64,000 bases of DNA. It comes from Rubrivirga marina. Its GTDB lineage: Bacteria; Bacteroidota; Rhodothermia; Rhodothermales; Rubricoccaceae. Position numbers and translations under genes: made by a program. The notes beneath the pieces were generated by a model that ran no database searches, was not told the origin of the DNA, and saw nothing but the letters and a program-made list of their open reading frames with translations. Positions 2,394 to 63,231 of the stretch are shown one piece after another (within the stretch, counting starts at the first letter, position 1; each line of letters begins with the position of its first letter). The stretch lies in NCBI RefSeq assembly GCF_002283365.1, contig NZ_MQWD01000001.1:373694-437693 (forward strand), in the 5' to 3' direction.

Positions 2394-2415
2394 CCCGCCT
2401 CGGCGCCGAGGTGGA
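2394..2415. repeat. GC palindrome copy, after pcm
   Basis: Copy of the dispersed palindrome (half-site CCCGCCTCGG, centre CG, then the reverse complement with one change). It begins six bases after the pcm TGA, a position typical of this family, and could act as the 3' end of the folP-cdaA-pcm transcript. Confidence 0.85.
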
Positions 2416-2476
2416 CCCGGCCGGAGGAACCTTCGGCCGTTTCCGGCGAACCCCGCCCCTCCCCTCTCCCCCATCC

Positions 2477-3433
2477 ATGCCCCGTTCCGGCCTCCGCCAC
2501 GCCCCGCTCCACTTTGCCCAGGGCCTCCTGATGGGCGCCGCCGACGTCGTCCCCGGCGTCAGCGGCGGGACGATGGCGCTCATCGTCGGGATCTACGAGC
2601 GGCTCATCGAGTCGGTCCGCGAGGGGCTGGCCGCGCCGGCGTTCCTCGTGGCCGGGCGGATCGGCGACGTCAAGCGGTCGCTGGCGGCCGTCGACTGGGG
2701 CCTCGTGGTGCCGCTGGGCGTCGGCGTCCTCACGGCGCTCGTGGCCGCCTCGGGCGTGATCCCGGACCTCTTGGAAGCGTACCCGGAGCGGTCGCGCGGC
2801 CTGTTCTTCGGACTCATCGTGGCGTCGATCTACATCCCGTGGCAGGCGCTCGACCGGCACTCGTGGCGGGAGGCCGTGACGGCCCTCGTGGCGGCGATCG
2901 CGGCGTTCATTCTGGTGGGCCTGCCGGCCCTCGCGCCGGCGACCGACCCGGGCTGGATCCGGATCTTCCTCTCGGCCTCGGTCGCGATCTGCGCCATGAT
3001 CCTGCCCGGCGTGAGCGGGTCGTTCCTCCTCCTCGCGCTCGGGATGTACGAGGTGACGCTGGAGGCGCTCCACGACCGCGACCTCGGCTACGTCGCCATC
3101 TTCGCCCTCGGCGCGCTCGTCGGCCTCGGCCTGTTCTCGCGGCTCCTGACGTGGCTCCTCGCCGAGAAGTCGGACCTCACGATGGCCGCGCTCATCGGGC
3201 TGATGGCCGGCTCGCTGCGGGCGCTCTGGCCGTGGCAAACCGAGACCCGCGAGATGCTGGCGCCCACGGGCGACGTGCCCGCCGTCGTCGGGCTGATGGT
3301 GCTCGGGCTGGCGATCGTGGCGGTCCTCTTGTGGGTGGCTGCTCGGTTCGTCCAGCCGCCCGAGGTCGCCGAGGCGGCCGAGGAGCAGGCCCGGGACCTC
3401 GAAGCGCGCGAGGACGCGCGGCACCCGGACTGA
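2477..3433 (+). CDS. DUF368 membrane protein, probable polyprenyl-phosphate transporter
   Basis: The N-terminal signature AQGLLMGAADVVPGVSGGTMALI and the internal repeat MILPGVSGSFLLLALGMYE define the DUF368 family. Members have recently been shown to translocate undecaprenyl phosphate (PopT), recycling the lipid carrier of cell-wall synthesis. The 318-aa protein has roughly eight membrane spans and a charged Glu/Ala-rich C-terminus. ATG at 2477 was chosen because it sits directly before the family N-terminus and follows a C/T-rich leader. The substrate assignment is by family, not visible in the sequence. Confidence 0.88.
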   Translation: MPRSGLRHAPLHFAQGLLMGAADVVPGVSGGTMALIVGIYERLIESVREGLAAPAFLVAGRIGDVKRSLAAVDWGLVVPLGVGVLTALVAASGVIPDLLEAYPERSRGLFFGLIVASIYIPWQALDRHSWREAVTALVAAIAAFILVGLPALAPATDPGWIRIFLSASVAICAMILPGVSGSFLLLALGMYEVTLEALHDRDLGYVAIFALGALVGLGLFSRLLTWLLAEKSDLTMAALIGLMAGSLRALWPWQTETREMLAPTGDVPAVVGLMVLGLAIVAVLLWVAARFVQPPEVAEAAEEQARDLEAREDARHPD

Positions 3434-3451
3434 GCCGACCCGGCCCGCGGC

Positions 3452-3724
3452 CTACCCGAGGTCGACCGTGTCGACGACACCGACGACGGTCGCGTCGCTG
3501 GCCGTCAGGTCGTGCGTGGCCTTGAAGGGGAGCGCGGCCTCGGACGACGTGACGTAGAGGACCGTGTCGCCGGGCCCGGCGTCGCACGTGTCGAGCGCCG
3601 TCGTCGGGCGGCCCACGTCGGTGCCGTCAGCGCGGAGGGGTTGGACGAGGACCATCCGCCGGGCGTGGAGCGACGCGTCCTTCTGCGTGGCCCAGATCGA
3701 GCCGATGACGCGGCCGAGCCTCAC
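3452..3724 (-). CDS. EutN/CcmL-family microcompartment vertex protein (second of pair)
   Basis: A 90-aa single-domain protein beginning RLGRVIGSIWATQKDASLHARRMVLVQP, the N-terminal strand pattern of the EutN/CcmL (BMC-P) family. These proteins form pentamers that cap the vertices of carboxysomes and other microcompartments. The GTG start at 3724 overlaps the stop of the upstream paralogue by 4 bp, so the two are translationally coupled. No BMC-H or BMC-T shell gene and no signature enzyme is visible in the window. It could serve a shell encoded elsewhere or have taken another oligomeric role. Confidence 0.85.
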   Translation of the reverse strand: MRLGRVIGSIWATQKDASLHARRMVLVQPLRADGTDVGRPTTALDTCDAGPGDTVLYVTSSEAALPFKATHDLTASDATVVGVVDTVDLG

Positions 3725-4023: not shown

Positions 4024-4043
4024 GAGAGCGGGGCGGGGGGCCG

Positions 4044-4050: not shown

Positions 4051-4217
4051 GCGTCTCCTGGGGCCCGCCTCGGCGCGCCCGCGGCCGAATACAGAAGCGC
4101 CCCGAGGCGAACCCCGACGCCCGCTGCCTGTACTCCCTCCTGCGAGGCGCGTGGCCACACGCCGACGCCCCGCCCCTGGCTCCCCGCGCCCCTCCCCGGC
4201 TGCCCCGTCCCCCGCTC

Positions 4218-4742: not shown

Positions 4743-4811
4743 ACCGCCTCGCCCCGCCCGCCTCGGCGCGCTCCTGGACCGGCGCGCCCGCCCCCCGCCT
4801 CGTCCGCCCTG

Positions 4812-7397
4812 ATGCCTCGTTCTCTACTCCTCGTCCTCCTCTCGCTCGCGCTCCTGGCCCCGGCCGCCTCGGCCCAGGTCTCGGGCGTCGGGTACCGGCT
4901 GTCTCCGTCGGCCACCTACGTCGACTTCGAGGGCGACGCGGGGCTCGACGACGGGCTCCTCTACGGCGGCGGGATTGGCCTCTCGTTCGGCGAGTTCGTC
5001 GAGCTCGGCGGCGGGTACCAGTTCGGCGACGGGTTCCAAACCGACTTCACCGGCTTCTCCGGCCTCGACGACGCCCCCGAGCTGGCCGAGGCGCTCGCCG
5101 GGCTCGACCCGCGCGAGGTCAAGGTCGAGCGCTACGGCGGGACGCTCCGGCTCAACCTCGGGACGGCCGGCCTCGTCCCGTTCCTGACGGCCGGGACCGG
5201 CCTCATTCGGTTCTCGCCCGACGGCCTCGAGGCGACGCGCAACATCTACCTCCTCGGCGGTGCCGGCCTCCAACTCACCGGGGCCGACCGCTACGCGCTC
5301 GCCGTCTCGGTCGAGGACCTCGCCTACCGCTACGACCCGGCCTCCACGTTCTTCACCGCCGCCGACCTCTCGACGGTCGGGCTCGACTTCGCCGACTTCA
5401 ACCAGACGACGGTCAACAACCTGACGGTCCGCGGGACGGTCCAGCTCTACCTCGGCGGCCGGCGGCCCGGCCAGGACACCGAGGTCGACCGGGAACTCCG
5501 GCGCCAGTTCTCGGGCGGCCTCTCGGGCCTCAGCCTCTTTATCGAGCCGACGTACGGCCGCGTCCGCTTCGACGAGGCGTTCGACTACCGCGACCAGGCG
5601 TTCGTGGGCGGCGAGGTCGGGGTCGACCTCGGCCCGCTCGTCGGGCTCCGCGGGTTCTACATGCGCGGCGTCGAGGACGACAGCCCGACGTCGTTCGAGA
5701 GCGTCCGCATGCTCGGCGGCGACCTTCGGCTGCGGCTGTCGGAGGGCGGCCAGTTCGTCCCGTTCGTGAGCGTGGGCGGCGGCTACCTCGACGTGCTCGA
5801 CGGCTACGCGGCCGACCCGGGCGCCGAGGCGGGCAACGCGCTCGCCGAGGACCGCCCGTTCGCGACCGGCGGCGCGGGCGTCGAGCTCGCCCTGAGCCCG
5901 CGCTTCCGGATCATCGGCGAGGCCCGGGCGCTGCTGATGAGCACGCGCGACGAGCAGGACCTGAGCCAGCCCGAGAACGTGTTCGTCAGCCCGTACTACC
6001 GGGCCGGCGTCTCGTTCGGCCTCGGCGGCGACGCAGGCGACGGCGTCCAGGCCGTGCGCCGCGAGACGCTGGAGTCGGAGCGGGCGCGGCTGACGGCCGA
6101 ACGCGAGGCGGTCCGCCGGGAGGCTCTCGACCGGATCGAGGCGCTCGAAGCCGAACTGGCCGCGGCCCGCGCCGAGGGCGACATGGACGCCGTCGAGGTG
6201 CTGGAGGCCGAGCGCGAGGTGGCCATCGACCGGGCCGTCAGTCCCGACGCGGACCTCGCAGCGATGCCGGAGCGGACCGCGATCGTCGATCGCGAAGGCA
6301 ACGACGTCCAGCAGCGGATCCTCCGCGATGGAATCGGCGCACCGCCCTCGAGTGCTGTGACCGAGGAGGTCGTCGTGGACGAGACCGGGCAGCGGACGGT
6401 GACGCGGACCGTGCGGGAGGCGCCCGCAGCCGACCGGATGGTGACGATCCCGCTCCCCGAGCAGGGCGAGCTCTACGTCCGCTACGGCCCGCCGGGCGGC
6501 GTCCTCATCGGCGACGGAGGCATGGTGCAGGGCGACGCCCTGACGACCGGCGACGCCGCGGTCGCCACGTCGGGCCTCGACGAGGCCGAGGTCCGCACGA
6601 TCATCCGGGAGTCCCTGCGCGAGTCGCTGGCGGCCCAGGGCGACGCGCCGCTCACGGAGGGCGACCTCGGCGACCTTGAGCGCTCGATCGAGAACCGGAT
6701 CGCCGACCGCGTCGCCGGCCGGCTCACCGCGCCCTCCGGCGCCTCGGACTCGCGCATCGCCGCGCTCGAGCGGCGCCAGGACGACCTCCTCGACGAGATC
6801 CGCGCGCTCCGCGTCGAGCTCGCCACGCAGCCCCAGCAGCCCGTCGTCGTCCGCCAGCCCGCCGCCCCGGGCGATGACGCCGACCAAGACGTGGCCGTGA
6901 TCACGCCGACGCCGAGGCCGGCAGTCCCACCGACACGCGCCGTCCTCGGCCCGTCGTTCCAGATCTCGCCGACGGCCGGGTTCGGCCTCGGCGCCGGCCC
7001 CGACGGCATCCTCGTCGGCGCCCGCGTCGACTACGCGACGGGCCGGTCGTTCCACTACGTCCCCGAGCTGCTCGTCACGATCGGCGGCCGGCGGTCGGTC
7101 TCGGCCAACGCCGACGTGGCCTTCGACGTGCCGTCCGGCGGCTTCGCCGACGTAGGCTCCCCGTACGTCCGGACGGGCCTCGGGCTCGTGTCGTACGGGG
7201 GCTCCGACGAGATCCCGGCCACGTTCGACGAGGAGGTCGACGACGGCGGGACGACGCTGACGTTCAACCTCGGCCTCGGGGCGGATCTCGAGGCCGGCGG
7301 CGGCCGGCTCTTCGTCGACTTCACGACGGGCAACCTCGGCCGGTTCAACCGGCTCACCGCCGGCTACCGCTTCCCCTTCGGCCAGCGGGCCTACTAG
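4812..7397 (+). CDS. Outer-membrane protein with barrels separated by coiled coils
   Basis: An 861-aa exported protein with signal peptide LLLVLLSLALLAPAASAQ. Residues about 25-215 and 225-405 look like two beta-barrel or porin-like domains with alternating hydrophobic strands rich in Gly and aromatics. Residues about 413-475 are a charged coiled coil (many Glu/Arg/Ala), and about 591-673 a second coiled coil. Residues about 713-861 form a third beta domain ending in aromatic-rich FPFGQRAY, consistent with a C-terminal barrel signal. The downstream OmpA gene starts on the next base after the stop, so the pair is an operon. The sequence suggests an envelope-spanning structural protein; the function is unknown. 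Confidence 0.75.
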   Translation: MPRSLLLVLLSLALLAPAASAQVSGVGYRLSPSATYVDFEGDAGLDDGLLYGGGIGLSFGEFVELGGGYQFGDGFQTDFTGFSGLDDAPELAEALAGLDPREVKVERYGGTLRLNLGTAGLVPFLTAGTGLIRFSPDGLEATRNIYLLGGAGLQLTGADRYALAVSVEDLAYRYDPASTFFTAADLSTVGLDFADFNQTTVNNLTVRGTVQLYLGGRRPGQDTEVDRELRRQFSGGLSGLSLFIEPTYGRVRFDEAFDYRDQAFVGGEVGVDLGPLVGLRGFYMRGVEDDSPTSFESVRMLGGDLRLRLSEGGQFVPFVSVGGGYLDVLDGYAADPGAEAGNALAEDRPFATGGAGVELALSPRFRIIGEARALLMSTRDEQDLSQPENVFVSPYYRAGVSFGLGGDAGDGVQAVRRETLESERARLTAEREAVRREALDRIEALEAELAAARAEGDMDAVEVLEAEREVAIDRAVSPDADLAAMPERTAIVDREGNDVQQRILRDGIGAPPSSAVTEEVVVDETGQRTVTRTVREAPAADRMVTIPLPEQGELYVRYGPPGGVLIGDGGMVQGDALTTGDAAVATSGLDEAEVRTIIRESLRESLAAQGDAPLTEGDLGDLERSIENRIADRVAGRLTAPSGASDSRIAALERRQDDLLDEIRALRVELATQPQQPVVVRQPAAPGDDADQDVAVITPTPRPAVPPTRAVLGPSFQISPTAGFGLGAGPDGILVGARVDYATGRSFHYVPELLVTIGGRRSVSANADVAFDVPSGGFADVGSPYVRTGLGLVSYGGSDEIPATFDEEVDDGGTTLTFNLGLGADLEAGGGRLFVDFTTGNLGRFNRLTAGYRFPFGQRAY

Positions 7398-8393
7398 GTG
7401 CGGACCGCCCTCGCCCTCGCCCTCGCGGCGCTCACGGGCCTCGCCCCCGCCGCCCAGACCGCCGAGGTCGACACGGCCGGGGCGCGACGGACCGTGACGG
7501 TGCCAGCGCCCGACGGGCCGGGTGTGATCTACTTCCGCGCCGGGACGCCCGACCCGAACGCCCGCCGCCGCGTCCAGCCGAGCAGCCCCGTGCGCCAGCG
7601 CCTCGCGCCGCAGACGGGCGCGGGCCCGGCGGCCCGCACCCGACGTTCCGACAGCGACGCCGTGACGCGGCTCGACCTCGTGCTGCTGGAGCAGTCGCTG
7701 CTCCGGGCCCTCGACGAGCGGATCGCGGACCTGATCACGTCGCAGCCCCGGTCCTCGCTGCCGATCTCGCCACGGACGCCCGCCCCGATCCTCGTCCTCC
7801 CGCACGACCGCGACGCGCCGGGCGCCGAGCCCACGCCTCAGACGCCCGCCCCGCCGCTGGCTCCGCAGCCGGCCGCGCCGACCCCACCCGCCTCGGACCC
7901 GCTGGTCGCCGAGGTCGAGCGGGCCATCCTCGACACGGGCCTCTTCCGGTCCACGCGCGTCAACTTCGAGTTCGGTGAGGCCGGCCTGCTGCCAGTGTCG
8001 GAGGCGACGCTCGACGCCGTCGCCGACGTGCTCCGGCGCTATCCGGCCCTCCGCGTCCGCGTCGGTGGGCACACCGACTCCGTCAGCTCGGCGGCGTTCA
8101 ACCTCCGCCTCTCGCAGCGCCGCGCCGACGCCGTCCGCTACTACCTCGTCGGGAGCGGCGTCGAGGCGGGCCGCGTCGAGGCCGTGGGGTTCGGCGAGGG
8201 CCAGCCGGTCGCGTCGAACGAGACCGAGACCGGCCGCGCGCTCAACCGGCGCGTCGAGTTCGTGGCGCTCAACCCCGAAGCTGCTCGCGAGGAGACCCGC
8301 ACGCTCCGCGAGGCCACGCCGGCCGAGACGCCGGGCCTCCGCGACCTGATCCGGCAAGAGCTGGAACGCCTCCGCGAGGAGGACGGCGGCTGA
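7398..8393 (+). CDS. OmpA-family peptidoglycan-associated protein
   Basis: A 331-aa exported protein with signal peptide LALALAALTGLAPAAQ. A Pro-rich linker (about residues 130-175) leads to an OmpA C-terminal domain at about 185-295. That domain carries VNFEFGEAGLLP, RVRVGGHTDSVSSAAFN, LSQRRADAVRYYLV and RALNRRVEFVAL, the non-covalent peptidoglycan-binding signature. It starts with GTG immediately after the stop of the barrel/coiled-coil gene, so the two are very probably co-translated. The likely role is anchoring the outer membrane, or that partner protein, to the cell wall. Confidence 0.9.
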   Translation: MRTALALALAALTGLAPAAQTAEVDTAGARRTVTVPAPDGPGVIYFRAGTPDPNARRRVQPSSPVRQRLAPQTGAGPAARTRRSDSDAVTRLDLVLLEQSLLRALDERIADLITSQPRSSLPISPRTPAPILVLPHDRDAPGAEPTPQTPAPPLAPQPAAPTPPASDPLVAEVERAILDTGLFRSTRVNFEFGEAGLLPVSEATLDAVADVLRRYPALRVRVGGHTDSVSSAAFNLRLSQRRADAVRYYLVGSGVEAGRVEAVGFGEGQPVASNETETGRALNRRVEFVALNPEAAREETRTLREATPAETPGLRDLIRQELERLREEDGG

Positions 8394-8401: not shown

Positions 8402-8422
8402 CCCGCCTCGGCGCCGTGGCGG
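8402..8422. repeat. Degenerate GC palindrome copy, after OmpA gene
   Basis: The left half-site CCCGCCTCGG is intact and starts nine bases after the OmpA stop. The right arm has lost a base and carries changes. It lies between convergent genes. Confidence 0.6.
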
Positions 8423-9317: not shown

Positions 9318-9686
9318 ATGTTCGACGCCCTGCGCGACTGGTTCCTCGGTCTCGGCGCCGCGTACGGCGTCGACCCACTCGTCTTCGGGGCGATCTACGT
9401 CGGCGCGATCCCGCTGTTCTTCGGGTCGCTGGCGTGGCTGGGCAGGAACGTCCGGGCGAAGAGGAGCCCGGTCCTCCCGGTCCTCGCCGCCGGGCTCTGC
9501 TTCGTCTCGGCCTACCTCTACCTCCTCGTCGCGGGCGAGAACGTGCCGCTGTGGGTCTACGGTTTCGTGGCGCTCCTCGTCGCGTTCGGCGCCTGGAGCA
9601 CGGTCCGCTCCATCCGCAAGACGATCGCGGAGGCGAAGGCCCAGGGCCCCGCCCACCTCGGGCCCGAGGCGGGCGGGGCCGGCTAG
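9318..9686 (+). CDS. Small membrane protein, unknown function
   Basis: A 122-aa protein with three clear hydrophobic segments at about residues 20-40, 50-72 and 77-95, and a basic, cytosolic-looking tail. No family recognised. The last eleven residues (AHLGPEAGGAG) are encoded by a copy of the dispersed palindrome, so the C-terminus appears to have been extended by that element. The stop overlaps the convergent gene's stop by 4 bp. Confidence 0.65.
   Translation: MFDALRDWFLGLGAAYGVDPLVFGAIYVGAIPLFFGSLAWLGRNVRAKRSPVLPVLAAGLCFVSAYLYLLVAGENVPLWVYGFVALLVAFGAWSTVRSIRKTIAEAKAQGPAHLGPEAGGAG
9645..9680. repeat. Extended GC palindrome copy inside a gene
   Basis: Best long copy in the window: two 18-base arms with a single mismatch, extending the core with GGCCC-type flanks on both sides. 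It encodes the C-terminal residues HLGPEAGGAG of the small membrane protein and ends just before two convergent stop codons. Confidence 0.85.
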
Positions 9687-10564
9687 CGGATCGGGACGTC
9701 GAGCCGCAGGGCGACCGTCGCGTCCTGCCCCAGCACCGCGTCGTAGAGCGGGACGCGGACCGCGACTGACGGCCGGACGCCTCCCACCGCGACCGAGGCG
9801 CCCAGCACCGCCACAGCGTCAGCGTCGAAGAAGGTGTCGTAGCGGCCGTCCGTGAGGATCTGCCGGCCGAGCACGCCGCCGCTCAGCGTCGCCCGCCCGA
9901 CGGCCGCGTCCAGGGCCGCGCCGTAGCCGAGGGCGAGGTCGGGGTCCGTCGTGACCACCTGGTCCGTCGTGGGCACGAGCAGCGCCGGCTCGGCCCGGAG
10001 CCGGAGGCGGAGCCGCTCGTTGAGGGCCGGCACGTAGGCGACGCCCAGGAGCGCGGCGAACGTGTCGGGGAGGTAGGCCTCGAACCGCTCGGGCGCGGCC
10101 CGGAGCCCGCCCTCCCAGCCGTTGACCTCGTTGAGGTCTCGGTTGGGCGCGAGCGGGACTCGGACGCCGAGGTCCAACGACAGGTCGGGCCGGACGCCGG
10201 CCTGGACGCCCACGTAGGGATTCCCGAGGGCCACGTCGCTCAAACCGTCCGCGTAGAACCCCGAGACGTCGACGCTCTCGGGGAAGTCGTAGGCGGCGTA
10301 GGCCACGGGGAGCTCCGCGACGGCCGTGAGGCGGCGGCCCACCGGGACACGCGCGCCAAGCACGAGCGCCGTCGACACGATGCCGAGCTCACCGTCTTCG
10401 ATCAGCTGACCGTCGACGTCGGTCGTCGTGATGCCGAGGTCGTCGCCGACCGCGTAGAGGAGGTCCACGGAAACCGACGGACCGGCGGGCGGGGTGGGCC
10501 AGCCGCCGGGCTGGGCGGACGCGGCCGAGGCGGCGAGGACGAGGGCGAGGACGGAGAGACGCAT
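9683..10564 (-). CDS. Outer-membrane beta-barrel protein, unknown function
   Basis: A 293-aa exported protein with signal peptide LSVLALVLAASAASAQ, followed by about twelve amphipathic strands such as LDLGVRVPLAPNRDL and RLRLRLRAEPALLVP. The layout resembles small transporter-type or DUF3570/DUF481-like barrels, but I cannot name a family. It ends with strand ATVALRLDVPIR. ATG at 10564 directly precedes the signal peptide. The 3' end overlaps the convergent small membrane protein gene by 4 bp. Confidence 0.7.
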   Translation of the reverse strand: MRLSVLALVLAASAASAQPGGWPTPPAGPSVSVDLLYAVGDDLGITTTDVDGQLIEDGELGIVSTALVLGARVPVGRRLTAVAELPVAYAAYDFPESVDVSGFYADGLSDVALGNPYVGVQAGVRPDLSLDLGVRVPLAPNRDLNEVNGWEGGLRAAPERFEAYLPDTFAALLGVAYVPALNERLRLRLRAEPALLVPTTDQVVTTDPDLALGYGAALDAAVGRATLSGGVLGRQILTDGRYDTFFDADAVAVLGASVAVGGVRPSVAVRVPLYDAVLGQDATVALRLDVPIR

Positions 10565-10708: not shown

Positions 10709-11881
10709 TCAGGAGGCGCCCAGCGGCGATCCGGGGCCGTTCCAGGGGACACCGAAGTACCTGGCCACGTCGGCCGCGTGAGCGGCGAACGTGGGGTGCG
10801 TGCCGAGGTCGGCCGCCTCGGTGGCGCCGCGGACGTAGCGGAGGACCGGGACGCGCTCGCGCGTGTGGTCGGAGCCCGGGTACGTCGGGTCGTTGCCGTG
10901 GTCGGCCGTGAGCGTGAGGACGGCGCCCTCGGGGAGGGCGGCCTCCAACTCGGGCAGCGCCGCGTCGAAGGCCTCCAGCGCGCGGGCGTAGCCCACGGCG
11001 TCGGAGCGGTGGCCGTAGAGCTCGTCGAAATCGACGAGGTTGGTCCAGACGAACGTCGGCTCGCCGGACGCCGCGGCCTCGCGGATGGCGGCGAGCGTCT
11101 TCCGGACGCCGTCGTCGTTGCCGGCCGTCTTGACCTCCTCGTCCACGCCCTGCCCGCCGAACAGGGACGCCACCTTCCCCACGCAGACCGTCCGCACGCC
11201 CGCGTCCCGGAGCACGTCGAGGAGCGTCGGGCCGGTGGGCAGGAGCGAGAAGTCCCTCCGCTTCGCCGAGATCCGCTCGTAGGTGCCGGCCTCGCCCGCG
11301 AACGGCCGCGCGATGACGCGCCCGACGGCGTGCGCCCCCACCATCACCTCGTCCCGCGCGACTCGGCACAGCCGGTACTGTTCCTCCAGGGGAATCGTCC
11401 CGACGTGCGCCGCGATCTGAAAGACGCTGTCGGCGGAGGTGTAGACGATGGGCTGGCCCGTCCGCTCGTGCTCCCCTCCTAGCTCCGCGATGATGGCGGT
11501 GCCGGAGGCGGGCTTGTTGCCGAGGACGCCGTCGACGCCGGCCCGCTCGCAGAACGCGGCGATCACCTCAGGCGGGAAGCCGTCGGCGTACGTCGGGAAC
11601 GGCTGCTCCAGGACGAGACCGGCGAGGGCCCAGTGCCCGGTCGTCGAGTCCTTGCCGGCGGCGCGCTCCGTCATCCGTCCCCACGACGCCGCGGGTGCCT
11701 CCGCCTCGGGGAGCCCGTCGACGAGGCGGCCGAGGCCCCAGCATGTGAGGTTCGGGAGATCGGGGCGCTGCTGGCGGACGACGTGGCCGAGCGTGTCGGC
11801 CCCGGCGTCGCCGTAGGCCGCGGCGTCCGGCGCGTCGCCGACGCCGGCGCCGTCGAGGATGATCGTGACGTAGAGGGACAT
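10709..11881 (-). CDS. deoB: Phosphopentomutase
   Basis: Interconverts (deoxy)ribose-1-phosphate and (deoxy)ribose-5-phosphate in nucleoside salvage; a cytosolic, Mn-dependent enzyme of the alkaline-phosphatase superfamily. Signatures are the N-terminal metal site IILDGAGVGDAPDA, the activation loop AGKDSTTGHW, NLVDFDELYGHRSD, and the second metal site TADHGNDPTYPGSDHTRE. Length 390 aa is normal. ATG at 11881 begins MSLYVTIILDGAG as in homologues. The frame stays open further upstream through a heptamer repeat that reads NSELRTP, which I take to be leader, not coding. No other deo gene is adjacent. Confidence 0.95.
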   Translation of the reverse strand: MSLYVTIILDGAGVGDAPDAAAYGDAGADTLGHVVRQQRPDLPNLTCWGLGRLVDGLPEAEAPAASWGRMTERAAGKDSTTGHWALAGLVLEQPFPTYADGFPPEVIAAFCERAGVDGVLGNKPASGTAIIAELGGEHERTGQPIVYTSADSVFQIAAHVGTIPLEEQYRLCRVARDEVMVGAHAVGRVIARPFAGEAGTYERISAKRRDFSLLPTGPTLLDVLRDAGVRTVCVGKVASLFGGQGVDEEVKTAGNDDGVRKTLAAIREAAASGEPTFVWTNLVDFDELYGHRSDAVGYARALEAFDAALPELEAALPEGAVLTLTADHGNDPTYPGSDHTRERVPVLRYVRGATEAADLGTHPTFAAHAADVARYFGVPWNGPGSPLGAS

Positions 11882-12042: not shown

Positions 12043-13086
12043 GTGACGCCCCCCGACCTCCCGCCCATCCTCGCCATCGAGACGTCGTGCGATGACACGG
12101 CCGCGGCCGTCTGGGCCGACGGGCGGCTGGCGTCGAGTGTCGTCGCCGGGCAGCGGGTGCACGAGGGGTTCGGCGGCGTCGTCCCCGAGCACGCGAGCCG
12201 GGCCCACGAGCGGCTGATCGTGCCGACGATCGAGGCCGCGCTGGCGGAGGCCGGCCTCGGCATGGCCGACCTCGGCGCCGTCGCCGTGACGGTCGGGCCC
12301 GGGCTGGCCGGGTCGCTGCTCGTCGGCCTCAGCGCTGCTAAGGGCATCGCGCTCGGCCGCGGGCTGCCGCTTCTCGGCGTGAACCACCTCGAAGGGCACG
12401 TCTATTCGGTGATGATCGAGGAGCCCCGGCCATCGCTCCCGTTTCTGTGTCTGACGGTCTCGGGTGGGCACACGCTCCTCACGCTCGTCCGCGAGGGCTT
12501 TGCCCACGAGGAGCTCGGGCGGACGCGCGACGACGCGGCCGGCGAAGCGTTCGACAAGGTGGCGAAGCTCCTCGGTCTCCCCTACCCCGGCGGCCCCCAC
12601 ATCGACCGGCTCGCGGCCGAGGGCGACGCCGCATTTCTCGACCTCCCGTCGCCGCGCCTCGGGCCGAAGGGTCGCCGCGGGGACGCCCTCTTCGACCTCT
12701 CGTTCTCCGGCATCAAGACGGCCGTCCGCTACTGGATCGCCGACCTCCCCGAGGCGGACCGGGTCGGGATCGTCGAGCGCCATCGCGCCGACGTGGCGGC
12801 CTCATTCCAGCGCGTCGTGGTCGAGTCGCTGGTCGAGGGCGTTCGCCAGGCCGTCGAGGAGACGGGGGTACGGGCCGTCGCCGTCGTCGGCGGCGTCTCG
12901 GCCAACTCCGGCCTCCGTCGGGCCGTCACCGAGGCGGGCGCGGCCGACGGCTTCGACGTGTTCGTCCCAGACCTCCAGCACTCGGTCGACAACGCGGCCA
13001 TGATCGCTGTGACGGCCGCCTACAAGTGGGCGGCCGGCGAGACGTCCGACCTGTCGGTGGGCGCGACGCCGAGCCTGGCATTGTAG
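12043..13086 (+). CDS. tsaD: tRNA N6-adenosine threonylcarbamoyltransferase TsaD
   Basis: Transfers threonylcarbamoyl from TC-AMP to A37 of ANN-decoding tRNAs, with TsaB and TsaE. ASKHA-fold signatures: AIETSCDDTAAAV, PEHASRAH, the metal site NHLEGH (His115 and His119), SGGHTLL, GEAFDKVAKLLGLPYPGGP, SFSGIKTAVRYW and GGVSANSGLR, then HSVDNAAMIAVTA with the C-terminal Asp. Length 347 aa is typical. The GTG start at 12043 follows a C/T-rich leader. It is divergent from deoB; tsaB and tsaE are not in the window. Confidence 0.96.
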   Translation: MTPPDLPPILAIETSCDDTAAAVWADGRLASSVVAGQRVHEGFGGVVPEHASRAHERLIVPTIEAALAEAGLGMADLGAVAVTVGPGLAGSLLVGLSAAKGIALGRGLPLLGVNHLEGHVYSVMIEEPRPSLPFLCLTVSGGHTLLTLVREGFAHEELGRTRDDAAGEAFDKVAKLLGLPYPGGPHIDRLAAEGDAAFLDLPSPRLGPKGRRGDALFDLSFSGIKTAVRYWIADLPEADRVGIVERHRADVAASFQRVVVESLVEGVRQAVEETGVRAVAVVGGVSANSGLRRAVTEAGAADGFDVFVPDLQHSVDNAAMIAVTAAYKWAAGETSDLSVGATPSLAL

Positions 13087-13537: not shown

Positions 13538-13603
13538 TCCTCCCGCCGTGTTTCTGCCAGACCTCCGCCCCGCGCCGTTCGCGCCCGAGGCGGCCCCCGC
13601 CCC

Positions 13604-15835: not shown

Positions 15836-15870
15836 GCCCCTCCGCCTCGGTGCCGAGGCAGGCGGGGTCA
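15836..15870. repeat. GC palindrome copy between TonB receptor and sulP
   Basis: CCGCCTCGG, TG centre, CCGAGG with an inserted CA in the right arm. Its right end runs into the sulP stop codon, so here it sits at the 3' ends of two convergent genes, next to a second, unrelated hairpin. Confidence 0.8.
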
Positions 15871-41379: not shown

Positions 41380-41400
41380 GAGGCGGGGCGAGTCGCCCCG

Positions 41401-46695: not shown

Positions 46696-49125
46696 TCAGA
46701 ACGCGAAGCGGTAGGAGAGCGACGGGAGGACGGGGAACAGCGAGATCCCCACGAGCTGCTGGCGGGCCTCGCCGGTCTCGGCGTCGGTCCGCTCGTCGAG
46801 GAGCGTGACGAACGGGTTCTTCCGGTTGAGCGCGTTGTAGACGTCGAGCGAGACGCTGTGGGGGCGGCTCCCGCGGTGGAGGTAGAACGTGAGGCCGAGG
46901 TCGAGGCGGGCGTAGGCCGGGAGCCGATGCCCGTTGCGCGGGCCGTAGGCCACCTCCGAGGCCGCCTGCGGGACCGACTGGGTCCAGTACGGGATCGAAC
47001 CCGAGCTGAGGAACGTGGCGTCGTAGCTCGCCGCCGGCAGCGTCACGGCGTCGCCGGTCCCGTAGACCGCCGAGACCGACGCGTCGAACCGGCGCGAGAG
47101 GCGGGCGAGGACGACGGCTGAGACGTCATGCCGGCGGTCGTAGCGGTAGGGGAACCACGCGCCGTCGGCGATGGCGTCGAAGCGGCGGTCGGTCCGGGCG
47201 AGCGTGTAGGCGAACCACGCCGTCACGCGGTCCGTCCGGTGCTCAACGAACGCCTCCAGACCGCGGCTTCGGCCCTCGCCGGTCACCACGAGTTCCTGCC
47301 AGTCGTCGGTGGGCGTCGAGAAGGCCGCGCCGTCACGGTAGGCCACGAGGCCGTCCATCGCCCGGACGTAGCCCTCGACCGACCACGCCGTTCGTCCACT
47401 CGGCGACGAGCCCGCCAGTCCCGCGGCGACCTGCCACCCACGCTCGGGGCCGACGGAGTCGGCCGGGACCCAGAGGTCCGCGGGCAGGCCGATGCCGGCG
47501 CCGGTCGTGAGAAGGTGGACGGGCTGCTGCGTCACGGCCGCGCTCGCCTTGAGCGCCAGCCTCGGCCACAGCTTCACCGAGGCGGACAGCCTGGGCTCGA
47601 CGGACGGGTAGACGTTCTGACCGGCGACGTACGTCGCGAGGTGGAGCCCGAGCCCGAGCGTGAGCGGGCCTGCGCGCCACGTGTCGTCGACGTAGAGCAC
47701 GGCTTCGAGGCCGTCGGTGGGCCCGCCGCCGAGTGTGGTGTCGGCGGGGACGCCCTCGGCGGCGTCCTCGCCCAAGACCGAGAGGGCGCCGGGCGTGAAC
47801 CGGTGGTGCGTGACGGCCGCGCCGAGGCGGAGCGCGTGACCATGACCGGCGGCGAGGTCGAGGTCGAGCCGCGCGCCGAGATCGCGGATCCCGCTCCGGT
47901 AGCGCGCCGCCGCCGTCACCGGGCTCGGCCCGTTCCGCCCCTCGTCGGACGTGACCTCGACGTCGAAGCCGTAGTCGCTGGCCGTCAGCGTGAGCGCGCC
48001 GAAGAGGCGGGGCGAGAGGACGCGCGTGTAGCGGAGTGAGCCCACGAGCGAGCCCCAGTCGAGCCCGCCGCCCGTCGCGTTCTCGACGCCCGTCGCCGCG
48101 CAGTCGCCGGCCGCGCAGTCGATCTCCGGGTCGATGGCGGAAAACGAGAACGTGTCGCCGCCGCGGTAGACGCTGAGATAGAGCCGGTCGCGGTCCGAGG
48201 GCCGCCAGTTCAGCTTGGCGTTGACGTCGTAGAACGAGAGGCTCGGGTCGATCTGCGCCTCGTCACGCGCCGCCGCCCGCTCGTTCGCCCGGTCGATGAA
48301 CGGCCCGGCCAGCAGGTCGATGTGCGTCCGCCGCCCCGACACGAGGAGCGACGCCCGGCCGGGGACGATGGGGCCCTCCGCGAGGAGCTTCGTCGAGAGC
48401 AGCCCGACCTGCCCCTGCACGCGGTGCCGTTCCAGGTCGCCATCCCGAAGCCGCACGTCGAGGACCGACGCCAGCCGCCCGCCGAACCGTGCGGGGTAAG
48501 CGCCCTTGGTCAGCTCGACGCGGCTCACGGCGTCGGCGTTGAACGTCGAGAGGAAGCCGAACAAGTGCGATGCGTTGTAGAGCGGCGTGCCGTCGAGGAG
48601 CACGAGCGTCTGGTCGGGCGAGCCGCCGCGGACGTGGAGCCCGGCCGTCCCCTCCTGCCCCGCGCGGACACCCGGGAGGAGTTGGACGGCCTTGAGCACG
48701 TCGGCCTCGCCGAAGAGCGCCGGAAGCGCCTGGATATCGGTGCCCGACAGCGCGGCCTCGCCCATCTGAGGCGTCGACTCCGGCCGACGCGACCCGGCCG
48801 CGTCCGCCTCGACGACGACCTCACCGAGGTCGACCGGGTGGAGGGCCACGTCGAGCCGCCCGCCGACCGCCGAGTCCGCCCGGACCTCCCGCGCCTGGTA
48901 GCCGACGTACGAGACGACGAGGCCGACCGTGTCGGCGGGGAGCGGCAGGCTGTAGTGGCCGTACGCGTTCGTAACGGCGCCGCGGTCGAGGGCCGGGGCG
49001 TAGACGGCCGCGCCGATCAGCACGCCGCCCGTCTCGGCGTCCGTGACGGTCCCGCTCACGACCGACTGTGCGGACGCGCCCACCGCGAAGGCGAGGACAG
49101 CGAGACCAGCGACGAGACGCACCAT
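46696..49125 (-). CDS. TonB-dependent receptor with CarboxypepD_reg domain (module B)
   Basis: An 809-aa outer-membrane transporter, paralogue of the receptor at 43059. Signal peptide VRLVAGLAVLAFAVGASAQ, CarboxypepD_reg domain (VVSGTVTDAETGGVLIGAAVYA), plug with LLPGVRAGQEGTAGLHVRGG and LSTFNADAVSRVELTKGAYPARFGGRLASV, barrel ending SLSYRFAF. ATG at 49125 precedes the signal and was preferred over an in-frame codon further upstream. A TTG-N19-TATGTTG promoter fits about 70 bases upstream. Co-transcribed with DUF4249 (B). Confidence 0.93.
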   Translation of the reverse strand: MVRLVAGLAVLAFAVGASAQSVVSGTVTDAETGGVLIGAAVYAPALDRGAVTNAYGHYSLPLPADTVGLVVSYVGYQAREVRADSAVGGRLDVALHPVDLGEVVVEADAAGSRRPESTPQMGEAALSGTDIQALPALFGEADVLKAVQLLPGVRAGQEGTAGLHVRGGSPDQTLVLLDGTPLYNASHLFGFLSTFNADAVSRVELTKGAYPARFGGRLASVLDVRLRDGDLERHRVQGQVGLLSTKLLAEGPIVPGRASLLVSGRRTHIDLLAGPFIDRANERAAARDEAQIDPSLSFYDVNAKLNWRPSDRDRLYLSVYRGGDTFSFSAIDPEIDCAAGDCAATGVENATGGGLDWGSLVGSLRYTRVLSPRLFGALTLTASDYGFDVEVTSDEGRNGPSPVTAAARYRSGIRDLGARLDLDLAAGHGHALRLGAAVTHHRFTPGALSVLGEDAAEGVPADTTLGGGPTDGLEAVLYVDDTWRAGPLTLGLGLHLATYVAGQNVYPSVEPRLSASVKLWPRLALKASAAVTQQPVHLLTTGAGIGLPADLWVPADSVGPERGWQVAAGLAGSSPSGRTAWSVEGYVRAMDGLVAYRDGAAFSTPTDDWQELVVTGEGRSRGLEAFVEHRTDRVTAWFAYTLARTDRRFDAIADGAWFPYRYDRRHDVSAVVLARLSRRFDASVSAVYGTGDAVTLPAASYDATFLSSGSIPYWTQSVPQAASEVAYGPRNGHRLPAYARLDLGLTFYLHRGSRPHSVSLDVYNALNRKNPFVTLLDERTDAETGEARQQLVGISLFPVLPSLSYRFAF

Positions 49126-49288: not shown

Positions 49289-50140
49289 ATGTCCGCACCG
49301 ACCGCCACCGCCCCCGCCGACCTCGGCGCGCTCGTCGACCTCCTCCGCGGCCGCCGGCTGGCGGTCCTCGCCGGCGCCGGCATCTCCACCGAGTCCGGCA
49401 TCCCCGACTACCGCGGGCCGGAGACGAGGCACGTCGAGCGCCGGCCGGTCCAGTACGACGACTTCGTCCGCGACGCGACGGCCCGCCAGCGGTACTGGGC
49501 GCGCGCCAGCCGCGGCTGGGCCCGGATGACGGGCGCCCGACCGAACGAGGGCCACCGCGCGCTCGCGCGGCTCGAACGGGCCGGCCTCGTCGAGGGCGTC
49601 GTCACGCAGAACGTCGACGGGCTCCACCAGGCGGCCGGCTCGGGGCGCGTGATCGAGCTCCACGGCGCCCTCGACCGCGTCGTCTGCCTCGGCTGCGACG
49701 TGCGGCTCTCCCGAGCGGAGGTCCAGCGTCTCATCGAGTCAACGAACCCCGGGTGGCTCCGCCTCGGCGCCGAGGCGGGCCGAATGGCGCCCGACGGCGA
49801 CGTCGAGTTGGAGGCCGGGATCGCCCGGTTCGTGACGCCGGTCTGTCCGTCGTGCGGAGGTCCGCTCAAGCCCGACGTCGTGTTCTTCGGCGAGAGCGTC
49901 CCGAAGCCGCGCGTGGCCGAGGCCGCTGGGATCGTCTCGCGGGCCGACGCGCTCCTCGTGGTCGGCTCCAGCCTCGCCGTCTACAGCGGCTACCGGTTCG
50001 TGCGGCAGGCCGAAAAAGAGGGGACGCCGGTCGCCATCGTCACGCTCGGCGAGACGCGGGGCCACCCGCACGCGGCCGTCGCCCTCGACGCCCGCCTCGG
50101 CGACGCGCTGCCCGCCCTCGCGGACGCACTCGGCGCCTGA
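49289..50140 (+). CDS. cobB: Sir2-family NAD-dependent deacylase
   Basis: Removes acyl groups from protein lysines at the cost of NAD. The 283-aa protein has GAGISTESGIPDYRGPET, TQNVDGLHQAAG, catalytic His125 (ELHG), zinc cysteines Cys133/Cys136 (CLGC) and Cys186/Cys189 (CPSC), then DVVFFGESVPKP and VVGSSLAVYSGYRFV. Residues 157-164 (LRLGAEAG) in the zinc-module loop come from a palindromic element, yet the zinc cysteines are intact. ATG at 49289 precedes MSAPTATAP. It is divergent from the TonB receptor. Confidence 0.92.
   Translation: MSAPTATAPADLGALVDLLRGRRLAVLAGAGISTESGIPDYRGPETRHVERRPVQYDDFVRDATARQRYWARASRGWARMTGARPNEGHRALARLERAGLVEGVVTQNVDGLHQAAGSGRVIELHGALDRVVCLGCDVRLSRAEVQRLIESTNPGWLRLGAEAGRMAPDGDVELEAGIARFVTPVCPSCGGPLKPDVVFFGESVPKPRVAEAAGIVSRADALLVVGSSLAVYSGYRFVRQAEKEGTPVAIVTLGETRGHPHAAVALDARLGDALPALADALGA
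49758..49780. repeat. GC palindrome copy inside the Sir2 gene
   Basis: TCCGCCTCGG-CG-CCGAGGCGGGC, perfect core, read as RLGAEAG in the loop of the zinc module between the two cysteine pairs. Confidence 0.9.
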
Positions 50141-59957: not shown

Positions 59958-62357
59958 ATGACGTCCGACCGCTGGCACGCCATCGAAGCCGTCTTCGACG
60001 AGGCGGCCGACCTCCCCCCGGCCGAACGCCGGGCCTTCCTGGACCGGTCCTGCCGTACGCCCGACGGCCACCCCGACCCCGCGCTCCGCGAGGAGGTCGA
60101 GCGCCTGCTCAAGCTCGACGTCGGGGCCGAGGCGTTTTTCGAGAGCCCGGCCGTTCCCGACCCGGACCGGGCGCCGCCCGAGGCCGGTCCGTGGCGGCTC
60201 GTCGAGCGGGTCGGCGTGGGCGGGATGGGCGAGGTCTGGCGCGCCGAGCGGGCCGACGGTGCCTATGACCAGACGGCGGCCGTCAAGCTCGTCCGCCCCG
60301 GCCTCGGCGACGACCTCCTCCGGCGGTTCCAGGCCGAGCGCGCCGTGCTCGCGCGGCTCGACCACCCGGCCATCGCGCGGCTCCTCGACGGGGGCACCGC
60401 CAGCGACGGCCGGCCGTACCTCGCGCTCGAGTTCGTCGAAGGCGAGCCGATCACCGACTTCTGCGACCGCCGCCGCCTCGGCGTCAACGAGCGGCTGGCG
60501 CTCTTCGGCGACGTGTGCGAGGCGGTCGCGGCGGCGCACCGCCGGCTCGTGGTCCACCGCGACCTCAAGCCGTCGAACGTCCTCGTGGCCGAGACGCCGG
60601 AGGGGCCGCGCGTCAAGCTCCTCGACTTCGGCATCGCCAAGCTCCTCGACGACGACGCCGGCCTCTCGCTCGTCCAGACCCGCGCCGACCGGCGCGTCCT
60701 GACGCCCGAGTACGCCGCGCCCGAGCAGATCCGCGGCGAGGCACCGACGACGGCGACCGACGTGTACGGGCTCGGCGTCCTGCTCTACGAGCTCCTCACG
60801 GGCCAGCGGCCGTACCGCCCCGCCAGCCGCGTCCGTCGCGCCATCGAGCAGGCCATCCTCGAGGCCGACCCGACCGAGCCCTCGACCGCCGCCACCGACG
60901 CCCACGCGGCCCGGGCCGCGGCCGAGAACCGGGCGACGCAGCCCGATCGCCTCCGACGCCGCCTCCGCGGCGACCTCGACCGGATCGTGCTCAAGGCGCT
61001 CCGCAAGGAGCCCGACCGGCGCTACGACGGCGCCGCCGCGCTGGCCGCCGACCTCGACCGGCACCTCGGCGGGCTCCCCATCGAGGCGCGGCCGGAGTCG
61101 ACCGGCTACCGGATCGGCAAGTTCGTGCGGCGGCACCGGGCGGCGGCGGCCGCGGCGTGTGTCGCACTGCTCGGCGTCCTCGGCGGGGCCGGCGCCGCGC
61201 TCTGGCAGGCCCGCGAGGCGAGCGCGGAGCGAGATCGGGCCGACGCGCGCGCCGCCGAGGCCGAGGCGGTCACGGGCTTCCTCGTCGACCTCATCGGCGA
61301 GGCCCGGCCCGCGGGCTCCGACGGCGACACGCTCCGCGTTCGCGACGTGCTCGACGCGGGCGTGGCCCGGCTCGACACCGGGTTCGCCGACCGGCCGCTC
61401 GTGGCCGCGGCCCTCGCGACGGCGTTCGCGCGGTCGTATGCCAAGCTGGGCCAGAGCGAGCGGGCCGTCCCGCTCTTCCGCCGAGCCCTCGACCTCCGCC
61501 GAGCCCACCTTCCCCCGCTCGACCCGGACGTCCTCCAAGCCGAGAACGCGCTCTCCCTCGCCCTCCTCAACAGCGACGATCTCGACGGCGTCGATTCCCT
61601 CATGACCGCCGCCGTGGCCACCCGCCGCGCCGGCCTCGGAGCGGCCCACCCCCAGGTGGCCATCGCCCTCAACGACCTCGGCATCGCCGCCGACGCGCGC
61701 CGGCCCGACTCGCTAGCGCGGGCCGCGGCGGAGGGCTACTTCCGCGAGGCCATCGACGTGATCGAGGCCGCCGGCCCCGCGGCGTTCGCGGCGGCCTACG
61801 ACGGCAGCGCCTCGTTCGACGGCTTCCGGTCCGGCCTCTACTACAGCCTCGCCGTCCACTACATGACCACGGGCCGACAAGAGCAGGCCGTCGAGCCCAT
61901 GGGGCGAGCCGTCGAGCTCGACGACGCGCCGCCGGAGTCGCTGGATCACCAGATCCTGGCCAACGGGTACGGCGTCCTGCTCCGCCAACTCGAGCGCTAC
62001 GACGAGTCGATCGCCGTCCACCGCGAGGTGGTCGAGGCCGCCCGCCGGGCCCACGGGCCGGACCACCCGTTCTATGGGCATCCGGTCCTCAGCCTCGGCT
62101 CGGCGCTCCAGGCCAGCGGCGACGCGGAGGGCGCAATCCCCGTCCTGAGAGAAGCGCTCCGCGTGTTCGGCGGGCCCGACGCCGACGACCAGGCGGCCCT
62201 CGAGGCGCGGTTCTACCTCGGCCGCGCGCTCGTCGAGGCGGGCCAGGCCGCCGAGGGCCGTCGCGTCCTCCGGGCCGCGCTGCCGGGGCTGGCCGAGACG
62301 TTCGGCCCCGACAACGTCCGCGTGCGGAGGGCGCGCGAGCTCACGGCCGGCGCCTGA
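59958..62357 (+). CDS. Membrane Ser/Thr protein kinase with TPR-like region
   Basis: A 799-aa kinase. N-terminal helical region with the ERRAFLDRSC segment; a kinase domain at about residues 75-345 has the Gly loop GVGGMGEVW, VK Lys (AAVKLVRPG), HRDLKPSN (His200, Arg201, Asp202), LLDFGIAKLL and TPEYAAPEQIRGE. One membrane span at about 393-416 is followed by an extracytoplasmic helical region with TPR-like repeats (LGQSERAVPLFRRALDLRRAHLPPLDPDVLQAENALSLALL). The kinase is paired with the ECF sigma factor upstream and could phosphorylate and activate it in response to a periplasmic signal. Confidence 0.9.
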   Translation: MTSDRWHAIEAVFDEAADLPPAERRAFLDRSCRTPDGHPDPALREEVERLLKLDVGAEAFFESPAVPDPDRAPPEAGPWRLVERVGVGGMGEVWRAERADGAYDQTAAVKLVRPGLGDDLLRRFQAERAVLARLDHPAIARLLDGGTASDGRPYLALEFVEGEPITDFCDRRRLGVNERLALFGDVCEAVAAAHRRLVVHRDLKPSNVLVAETPEGPRVKLLDFGIAKLLDDDAGLSLVQTRADRRVLTPEYAAPEQIRGEAPTTATDVYGLGVLLYELLTGQRPYRPASRVRRAIEQAILEADPTEPSTAATDAHAARAAAENRATQPDRLRRRLRGDLDRIVLKALRKEPDRRYDGAAALAADLDRHLGGLPIEARPESTGYRIGKFVRRHRAAAAAACVALLGVLGGAGAALWQAREASAERDRADARAAEAEAVTGFLVDLIGEARPAGSDGDTLRVRDVLDAGVARLDTGFADRPLVAAALATAFARSYAKLGQSERAVPLFRRALDLRRAHLPPLDPDVLQAENALSLALLNSDDLDGVDSLMTAAVATRRAGLGAAHPQVAIALNDLGIAADARRPDSLARAAAEGYFREAIDVIEAAGPAAFAAAYDGSASFDGFRSGLYYSLAVHYMTTGRQEQAVEPMGRAVELDDAPPESLDHQILANGYGVLLRQLERYDESIAVHREVVEAARRAHGPDHPFYGHPVLSLGSALQASGDAEGAIPVLREALRVFGGPDADDQAALEARFYLGRALVEAGQAAEGRRVLRAALPGLAETFGPDNVRVRRARELTAGA

Positions 62358-62415
62358 ACCAGCCCGCCTCGGGCGCCCTGTGGAGAGGGCCGCCTCCCGA
62401 CCGCGCCGGGACCGG

Positions 62416-63156
62416 CTACATCGCCATCCCGCCGTCGACGCAGATGACCTGGCCCGTCACGTAGGCCGCGGCGTCGGAGAGGAGGAAGAGGACGGCCGCG
62501 GCGATGTCGTCGGGCTGGCCAAGGCGTCCGAGCGGGATCTGGCCCATGAGCTTCTCGGCGGCCGGCCCGAGGTCGGCCGTCATGTCGGTCTCGACGTAGC
62601 CCGGCGCGATCACGTTGGCGCGGACGCCGCGGCCGGCCAGCTCGCGCGCGAGGCTCTTCGTGAACCCGATGAGCCCGGCCTTCGACGCCGCGTAGTTCGC
62701 CTGCCCCGCGTTGCCCATCACGCCGACGACCGACGAGATCGTGACGATGCTCCCGGCGCGCTGCTTCATCATGGGCCGATAGGCCGCCTTCGCCACGTGG
62801 AAGGCGCCCGTCAGGTTCGTGTCGATCACGGCCTGCCACGCCTCGGCGTCCATCCGGATCATCAGCCCGTCGCGCGTGATGCCGGCGTTGACGACGAGCC
62901 CGTCGATGGCGCCCCATTTGTCGAGGACGGCCTGGACGGCGGCCGCGGCGTCGTCGGCCGACGCCGCGTCGGCCTGGATCCCGAGGGCCTTATCGTCGCC
63001 GAGCTCGGCGACGAGGGCGTCGGCGGTGTCGGACGAGGAGCGGTAGGTGAACGCGACGTTCGCGCCGGCCGCGGCGGCGGCGTCGACGATGGCGCGGCCG
63101 ATGCCGCGCGTGCCGCCGGTGACGAGGACGGTCTTTCCGGAGAGGTCGAGGGTCAT
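62416..63156 (-). CDS. fabG: 3-oxoacyl-[acyl-carrier-protein] reductase
   Basis: NADPH-dependent reductase of the fatty-acid elongation cycle. The 246-aa SDR has VLVTGGTRGIGRAIV (cofactor loop), the NAG motif in LVVNAGITRDGLMIRM, the catalytic Ser and Tyr-Lys in SIVTISSVVGVMGNAGQANYAASKAGLIGFTKSLA and NVIAPGYVETDM, and ends GQVICVDGGMAM, the FabG-type tail. ATG at 63156 starts MTLDLSGKTVLVTGG. It follows fabD on the same strand by 73 bases with a palindrome between. Confidence 0.95.
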   Translation of the reverse strand: MTLDLSGKTVLVTGGTRGIGRAIVDAAAAAGANVAFTYRSSSDTADALVAELGDDKALGIQADAASADDAAAAVQAVLDKWGAIDGLVVNAGITRDGLMIRMDAEAWQAVIDTNLTGAFHVAKAAYRPMMKQRAGSIVTISSVVGVMGNAGQANYAASKAGLIGFTKSLARELAGRGVRANVIAPGYVETDMTADLGPAAEKLMGQIPLGRLGQPDDIAAAVLFLLSDAAAYVTGQVICVDGGMAM

Positions 63157-63205
63157 GGATCGAGGTCAGAGGGGCCGGAAAGATCGCACGCGCCCCCGCC
63201 CGCTG

Positions 63206-63231
63206 CCTCCGCCTCGGCGCCGAGGCGGGCT
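63206..63231. repeat. GC palindrome copy between fabD and fabG
   Basis: CCTCCGCCTCGG-CG-CCGAGGCGGGCTA; perfect core, and the fabD TAG is formed in its flank. Here it lies inside an operon, so it cannot be a full terminator in every position. Confidence 0.88.

Follow-up and report, generated by a model that had tools for sequence, protein, structure and literature searches.

What is the GC-rich palindrome that recurs just behind stop codons in the chromosome of Rubrivirga marina? The stretch studied here (the window) comprises 64,000 nucleotides of contig NZ_MQWD01000001.1, positions 373,694 to 437,693, from a genome of 5 Mb and 73% G+C in the order Rhodothermales. Its initial annotation read the palindrome as a REP-type (repetitive extragenic palindromic) or 3'-end element of this lineage and had not noticed that its half-site occurs as a word throughout the genome. 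We find that the half-site is the basic unit, of which the palindrome holds two copies in mirror image. The comparative evidence below suggests that the palindromes consist of a species-specific word in inverted pairs, and that this word works like a DNA uptake sequence, a reading to which we assign a probability of roughly 0.6; we write "works like" and not "is" because no receptor for the word was identified among the candidates.

Sequence was read in 857 kb (18%) of the 4.71-Mb main contig of this genome (G000) and in its contigs C5 and C10, while the remainder was only counted. Genes come from our own Markov-model caller and not from annotation, which gives 56 genes in the window and may miss short ones. 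The search across the order took in 114 genomes, and the family comprises nine of these (G000 to G008). Excess in coding DNA was measured against synonymous-codon shuffles, and whole-genome counts were set against the reversed word as a control.

The excess of palindromes reported initially is real. With up to one mismatch, the half-site CCCGCCTCGG occurs 118 times in the window compared to 46.6 +- 7.7 in dinucleotide shuffles (shuffle maximum 66). The exact palindrome GCCTCGGCGCCGAGGC is found 185 times in the whole genome and its reversed control not once. When pairs are defined as inverted copies of CCGCCTCGG with a centre of 2-30 nt and at most two mismatches in total (three if the centre is 2 nt), the window holds 44, including loose intragenic ones that may be due to chance, and the centre is 2 nt long in 22 of them. 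Among pairs of exact half-sites the centre measures 2 nt in 51 of 97 cases, followed by 8 nt (12), 16 nt (11) and 11 nt (6), and the centres are mostly unrelated to one another in sequence. Counting every pair within 60 nt, with at most one mismatch per half-site, gives 408, while permuting the half-site in three ways gives 46, 47 and 6. As a side observation, the 26-nt centre CCCTTCGGCTTCGCTCAGGAGAGCCG of the pair at 41343-41386, or a near copy of it, recurs between half-sites at several loci of this genome, unlike other centres. No family in Rfam matched the window at gathering score. Inverted pairs in the window (no strand assigned) include:

2395..2414, inverted pair, 2-nt centre, 6 nt past stop of + gene 1720-2388
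8403..8422, inverted pair, 9 nt past stop of + gene 7398-8393
9653..9672, inverted pair, 10 nt past stop of - gene 9683-10564; within end of called + ORF (open reading frame) 9318-9686
15842..15861, inverted pair, 6 nt past stop of - gene 15868-17385 (sulfate permease family); T-tailed hairpin beyond, 15797-15828
17626..17645, perfect inverted pair, 6 nt past stop of - gene 17652-18371
18387..18420, inverted pair, 16-nt centre, intergenic
20552..20571, inverted pair, both half-sites exact, 6 nt past stop of - gene 20578-22215 (alpha-amylase family)
22358..22383, inverted pair, 8-nt centre, 12 nt past stop of - gene 22396-24870
24914..24933, inverted pair, 6 nt past stop of - gene 24940-25692
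27995..28020, loose pair, 8-nt centre, 2 mismatches, within end of + gene 26463-28031; 7 nt past stop of - gene 28028-28738
29487..29506, inverted pair, within called + gene 28963-29535
30786..30805, perfect inverted pair, 2 nt past stop of + gene 29710-30783 (YceG family)
32464..32483, inverted pair, between convergent genes, stops 5 and 10 nt away
35893..35912, perfect inverted pair, 55 nt past stop of prolyl-tRNA synthetase gene 34353-35837; within called + gene 35841-36593
36800..36819, inverted pair, intergenic
39025..39044, inverted pair, 6 nt past stop of + gene 38563-39018
41343..41386, inverted pair, 26-nt centre, between convergent genes, stops 6 and 14 nt away
43008..43027, inverted pair, 31 nt past stop of - gene 43059-45509; within start of called - gene 41995-43059
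46639..46658, inverted pair, 37 nt past stop of - gene 46696-49059; within start of called - gene 45623-46693
49759..49778, perfect inverted pair, within called + gene 49289-50140
51982..52010, inverted pair, 11-nt centre, within - gene 50837-53317
54057..54076, inverted pair, 6 nt past stop of + gene 53460-54050
54664..54683, inverted pair, between convergent genes, stops 6 and 2 nt away
54781..54800, weak inverted pair, 3 mismatches, within - gene 54686-55546
57446..57465, inverted pair, intergenic
57580..57599, inverted pair, 6 nt past stop of - gene 57606-58109
62364..62409, degenerate pair, 28-nt centre, between convergent genes, both stops 6 nt away
63209..63228, perfect inverted pair, 1 nt past stop of - gene ending at 63230

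The placement of these pairs against stop codons also holds up. Within the window, 18 of the 44 pairs (14 of the 22 with a 2-nt centre) start no more than 12 nt from the stop of a gene called on either strand; for 11 of these 18 the distance is exactly 6 nt. Across the 857 kb there are 163 intergenic pairs (158 once overlaps are merged), and the comparison with random positions that the initial annotation had proposed gives 147 pair ends within 16 nt of a stop (145 distinct, one at a negative distance) versus 16.1 +- 3.9 under random intergenic placement, i.e., an approximately nine-fold excess. Particular distances are favored, with 58 ends (57 distinct) at exactly 6 nt versus 1.0 at random, 23 at 2 nt and 15 at 10 nt. 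In the 6-nt class the stop codon, TGA (40) or TAG (18), occupies the three end bases of a 38-bp element of loose conservation that has CGRCYCCGY at its far end, and in the 2-nt class it is TAG in 21 of 23 cases. Among gaps of at least 20 nt, the word is present in 61/84 convergent, 115/355 co-directional and 25/106 divergent ones in G000 and in 13/28, 28/73 and 2/30, respectively, in its relative G008.

The half-site has a life of its own outside these pairs. The 10-mer YCCGCCTCGG occurs 3,001 times in the whole genome versus 241 times when reversed, and the exact 9-mer CCGCCTCGG 795 times in the 857 kb. Of these copies, 504 lie in coding sequence (2.4-fold over codon shuffles), where the word has the top z-score among 16,328 9-mers tested, and 443 coding copies have no neighbor within 40 bp. 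Words stand on both strands; inside genes they are single, and against stop codons they form inverted pairs. Single exact words CCGCCTCGG in the window include:

2745..2753, +, single exact word
3369..3377, -, single exact word
4065..4073, +, single exact word
4758..4766, +, single exact word
4864..4872, +, single exact word
5824..5832, -, single exact word
7888..7896, +, single exact word
10525..10533, -, single exact word
10813..10821, +, single exact word
11701..11709, +, single exact word
12749..12757, -, single exact word
12929..12937, -, single exact word
13585..13593, -, single exact word
17657..17665, +, single exact word
18827..18835, +, single exact word
21983..21991, -, single exact word
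25377..25385, +, single exact word
26500..26508, -, single exact word
28326..28334, -, single exact word
28573..28581, +, single exact word
33146..33154, +, single exact word
45452..45460, -, single exact word
47577..47585, -, single exact word
47822..47830, -, single exact word
50092..50100, +, single exact word
52951..52959, +, single exact word
54312..54320, +, single exact word
55731..55739, +, single exact word
58529..58537, -, single exact word
58935..58943, +, single exact word
60473..60481, +, single exact word
61261..61269, -, single exact word
63706..63714, +, single exact word

The word is scarce in DNA that looks acquired. Two contigs are probably plasmids: C5 (170 kb), which encodes a T2SSE-family ATPase, and C10 (94.5 kb), each with a protein recognized as ParA-like by motif. 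They match the chromosome in G+C and together carry 55 words where 245 would be expected at the chromosomal rate, with five tight pairs compared to 160 in the 857 kb of chromosome. In their coding DNA the word stands at background (0.9-fold of the codon shuffle). The longest word gap found in G000 (11.2 kb) holds an integrase and an IS110 transposase, and the longest found in G008 (20.5 kb) holds genes that look by eye like an integrase and a restriction-modification (RM) subunit. Further gaps in G000 measure 9.1 kb (three long genes, not mobile-looking), 8.0 kb and 7.8 kb. Contigs C10 and C11 of another relative, G004, have 0-1.75 of that genome's own words per kb in seven sampled stretches compared to 3.3 on its main contig. 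Two of these regions have a gene content worth recording in its own right: G008 contig C1 at ca. 541-562 kb is word-free, of lower G+C (0.63), and contains by eye an RM subunit, a defense-like gene and an integrase, and the word-poor contig C11 of G004 encodes two N_methyl pilins and a T2SSE ATPase, and one further gene on it looks secretin-like by eye.

Relatives place different words at the same positions after stops. De novo searches, run on the flanks behind stops and on over-represented words, yielded three words, or dialects, across six genomes of the family: D1 (CCGCCTCGG, 10-mer YCCGCCTCGG) in G000, G006 and G007, D2 (CCGCCAGCG, WCCGCCAGCG) in G008 and G005, and D3 (GCCTCTGGCG) in G004. 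G008 shares its genus with G000 but has D2, as does G005 from another genus. Counting D1 and D2 in the nine family genomes and D3 in all 114 of the order, we found YCCGCCTCGG 2,293 times in G006 (126 reversed) and 1,795 times in G007 (157 reversed) versus 20-383 in the other six. D1 is limited to part of one family, which together with the post-stop placement supports the initial reading as a 3'-end element of this lineage. WCCGCCAGCG occurs 2,009 times in G008 (control 337) and 2,308 times in G005 (control 400) versus 46-570 in the other seven. D3 reaches 14,176 copies in the 4.4 Mb of G004 (ca. 3.2 per kb; control 61) compared to 2-99 in the other 113 genomes. In five genomes the own word ranks first by z-score over codon shuffles (among k-mers found at least 12 times in coding DNA), with excesses of 2.4- to 21-fold; D3 in G004 coding DNA stands at 20.6- to 21.9-fold. 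In 260 kb of G004, 869 exact D3 copies face 420 one-mismatch variants, 144 of which are expected, and this shows a sharp word, which may have mutational or selective causes. Post-stop words in G004 are single or in both pair orientations, and in 19 of 217 genes D3 overlaps the stop codon itself (TA-GCCTCTGGCG). The exchange of words is illustrated by the YceG-family gene of the window (29710-30783), which ends in a D1 pair, while its reciprocal best match in the sampled DNA of G004 has a D3 pair, GCCTCTGGCGCCAGAGGC, just after the stop. No comparably dense word was seen in small samples of 19 genomes from 11 other families (ca. 20 kb each) or of family genomes G001-G003 (20, 49 and 10 kb read). 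Coding words were kept in 8/28 cases in G007 (309/1,929 for 9-mers of the same composition), 9/46 in G006 (409/3,194) and, for D1 words in G008 with its other dialect, 0/56 (400/3,974), counts that carry no weight because the underlying alignments, at 73-74% identity on average, probably contain paralogues as well.

Two observations on other words in G000 stand apart. In coding DNA of the chromosome and of C5 and C10, D2-like words exceed codon shuffles 2- to 3-fold (WCCGCCAGCG: 570 in the genome, control 252), with no intergenic excess and no pairs except two on C10; this may be a relic of an older dialect, a codon-pair bias or a second function. In intergenic DNA, AAGCGCTT (40 versus 1.5 expected) and TCAGGATGAC (28 versus 0.1) are perhaps a second dispersed repeat.

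The genomic marks of an uptake sequence are thus found together here: excess on both strands and in coding DNA, pairs at 3' ends, dialects, scarcity on plasmids and islands, and the competence proteins ComEC and DprA, each present in 9/9 family genomes. If the word works in this way, an uptake receptor would bind it, DNA of the same species would be preferentially taken up and replace homologous segments, and this would keep and spread the word. Paired copies may gather in the first non-coding bases after stops as a permissive site, and a second cause may be that the hairpin serves as a U-less 3' end (terminator or stabilizer) for one or both neighboring genes.

The literature describes uptake words from Neisseriaceae and Pasteurellaceae. 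The DNA uptake sequences (DUS) of Neisseriaceae are likewise 10-mers in thousands of copies, in genes and intergenic DNA, with inverted pairs at gene ends and dialects (PMC3630211). Overlapping dyad pairs are known from Simonsiella muelleri in that family (PMC3630211) as here from G004, and islands can be detected from word gaps in both systems (PMC7371117). G004, with its 14,176 copies in 4.4 Mb, is denser than the genome with the highest DUS figure given in PMC3630211 (5,918 in 2.4 Mb). Unlike in Neisseriaceae, our words are from another phylum, unrelated and G+C-rich, no ComP-type pilin was found, and the hairpins lack a T-run. The CTG core of DUS is absent from D1 CCGCCTCGG on either strand and present in D2 and D3. 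As with the uptake signal sequences of Pasteurellaceae (PMC2346458), one orientation is commoner in reading frames and there is some bias to gene ends (in G000, 36/192 in the first decile for one orientation and 42/265 in the last decile for the other); the word differs, and G004 shows a weak end bias and G008 none. In the wider Bacteroidota, Riemerella columbina prefers its own DNA in transformation (PMC7965970); its top-ranking 9-mers (0.5-0.6 per kb) and 10-mers are A/T-rich, and their role in uptake was left open there. Among the matches listed, no literature on uptake words in Rhodothermota appeared, with most subscription papers and all preprints outside the coverage.

Several results weigh against an uptake function. 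ComEC and DprA are also encoded by G001-G003, the family genomes in whose samples no word was seen. N_methyl pilins were found in 2/9 family genomes and not in G000, using a 27-residue profile that makes for a weak test, and a ComP-like receptor is therefore not evident. T2SSE occurs in 8/9 family genomes, and the T2SSE ATPase with its T2SSF neighbor on the G000 chromosome could belong to a type II secretion system. A pilin-like protein beside them (model with a pLDDT confidence score of 66, long helix plus sheet) gave no Foldseek match at E <= 0.001 and aligns best, at low Z, to minor pseudopilins of type II secretion (Z 6.7, 6.5, 5.9), with a Thermus competence pilin at Z 4.7. The coding excess in G000 is only 2.4-fold, with other 9-mers such as AGCGCGTCG and the D2-like words at ca. 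2-fold. Spacing of the word is not consistently more even than random, with coefficients of variation of 0.76-0.98 versus 0.92-0.95 at random in G000, 0.97 versus 0.84 in G004 and 2.02 versus 0.93 in the island-bearing stretch of G008. Gaps of at least 20 nt in G004 hold the word in 17/19 convergent, 90/115 co-directional and 21/27 divergent cases, so placement there is not specific to 3' ends because divergent gaps hold it as often as co-directional ones. Across reciprocal best matches, post-stop words were present in both partners 17 times, in one only 27 and 16 times and in neither 51 times, a co-occurrence that does not reach significance (odds ratio 2.0, p 0.14).

The main rival, which we consider unlikely, is that the word is both created and kept by a methyltransferase or repair system for which it is the target, with no role in uptake, an origin proposed for the highly iterated palindrome HIP1 of cyanobacteria (PMC4390886). 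Very high copy numbers and alternates that replace the main word in some genomes are traits of HIPs, too (PMC4390886), and the ends of our words are partly dyad-symmetric around an asymmetric center (CCG-CCT-CGG, GCC-TCT-GGC). All three words as a whole are asymmetric, whereas HIPs are perfect palindromes tied to methyltransferases, and the available sections of PMC4390886 do not mention inverted pairs at stop codons.

Markedly less probable is a 3'-end element and nothing else, i.e., a lineage-specific U-less terminator or mRNA-stabilizing hairpin selected after stops, as the post-stop placement and the preference for convergent regions in G000 and G008 would suggest. Some copies do fold stably (z -3.8 to -0.7 for the five folded). 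As noted initially there is no T-run: 43 hairpins show no excess of T in the first bases behind them (position +7 alone reaches 0.30) and hence lack the U-run of an intrinsic terminator. Where G000 genes have 60 nt or more of space downstream, T-runs follow 5/107 of those with a post-stop word and 45/245 of those without (p 0.0004), and word pairs and T-run terminators therefore tend to exclude each other. Two hairpins of the window with T-rich tails on the - strand do resemble ordinary terminators, 15797-15828, just past a word pair, and 17412-17436. The initial claim that altered arms stay complementary is weakly borne out: of 107 deviating arm positions, 101 are one-sided (32 of these keep a G-U pair), six are compensatory and none is a double change that breaks pairing, in elements picked by likeness to the word, which restricts double changes. 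Selection for arm pairing is thus weak at best. The outer arms show no covariation, which counts against this explanation together with the 504 of 795 exact words inside genes, most of them solitary, and with the single words and opposite pair orientation after stops in G004.

Very improbable is a word for recombination or chromosome segregation such as Chi or KOPS (FtsK-orienting polar sequences), which are also over-represented and differ between species; D2 (GCTGGCGG) resembles E. coli Chi. Chi and KOPS words are strand-biased, whereas here the strands balance in the whole-genome totals (1,525:1,476 in G000; 7,049:7,127 in G004) and without consistent bias in 40-kb blocks (near parity, the most uneven being 24:13 in G000 and 8:17 in G006). 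A shade less probable again is a REP-type palindrome moved by a RAYT (REP-associated tyrosine transposase), the part of the initial annotation that was not supported. REP elements with RAYT transposases are dispersed imperfect palindromes near gene ends, as are many copies here, and G000 has two Y1_Tnp genes. Both of these lie in one 3.3-kb stretch of C10 without an exact word or 20-nt core (up to four mismatches), and no Y1_Tnp was found in G006 despite 44 exact palindromes. Centers vary in length and mostly in sequence, arm changes are one-sided, relatives have other words and the single word dominates. A REP element is therefore disfavored: many half-sites stand alone within genes and thus outside extragenic DNA, and no RAYT flanked by the element was found in G000. 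The least probable explanation, a by-product of high G+C and codon usage in line with 73% G+C and the ca. 2-fold excess of some other words, is refuted for G004 by the 21-fold excess and for G000 by C5 and C10, which have equal G+C and no excess, and the relatives with their different words speak against it as well.

Taking the uptake reading further, we see even odds for the joint claim that word-specific recognition of self-DNA in transformation arose independently in this family of Rhodothermales, with a receptor of its own, that by parsimony the word was replaced at least twice within two genera, and that this left three dialects, of which the one in G004 is denser than the densest uptake word reported in PMC3630211. 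If true, this would be a third case of uptake words, in another phylum and with dialects changing within a genus, and it would open to comparative testing the spread of such words, the joint change of receptor and word, and the question whether such words isolate species. For these genomes, the word separates core from acquired DNA. The case also shows that a word spread over a whole genome can become visible as a dispersed palindrome behind stop codons.

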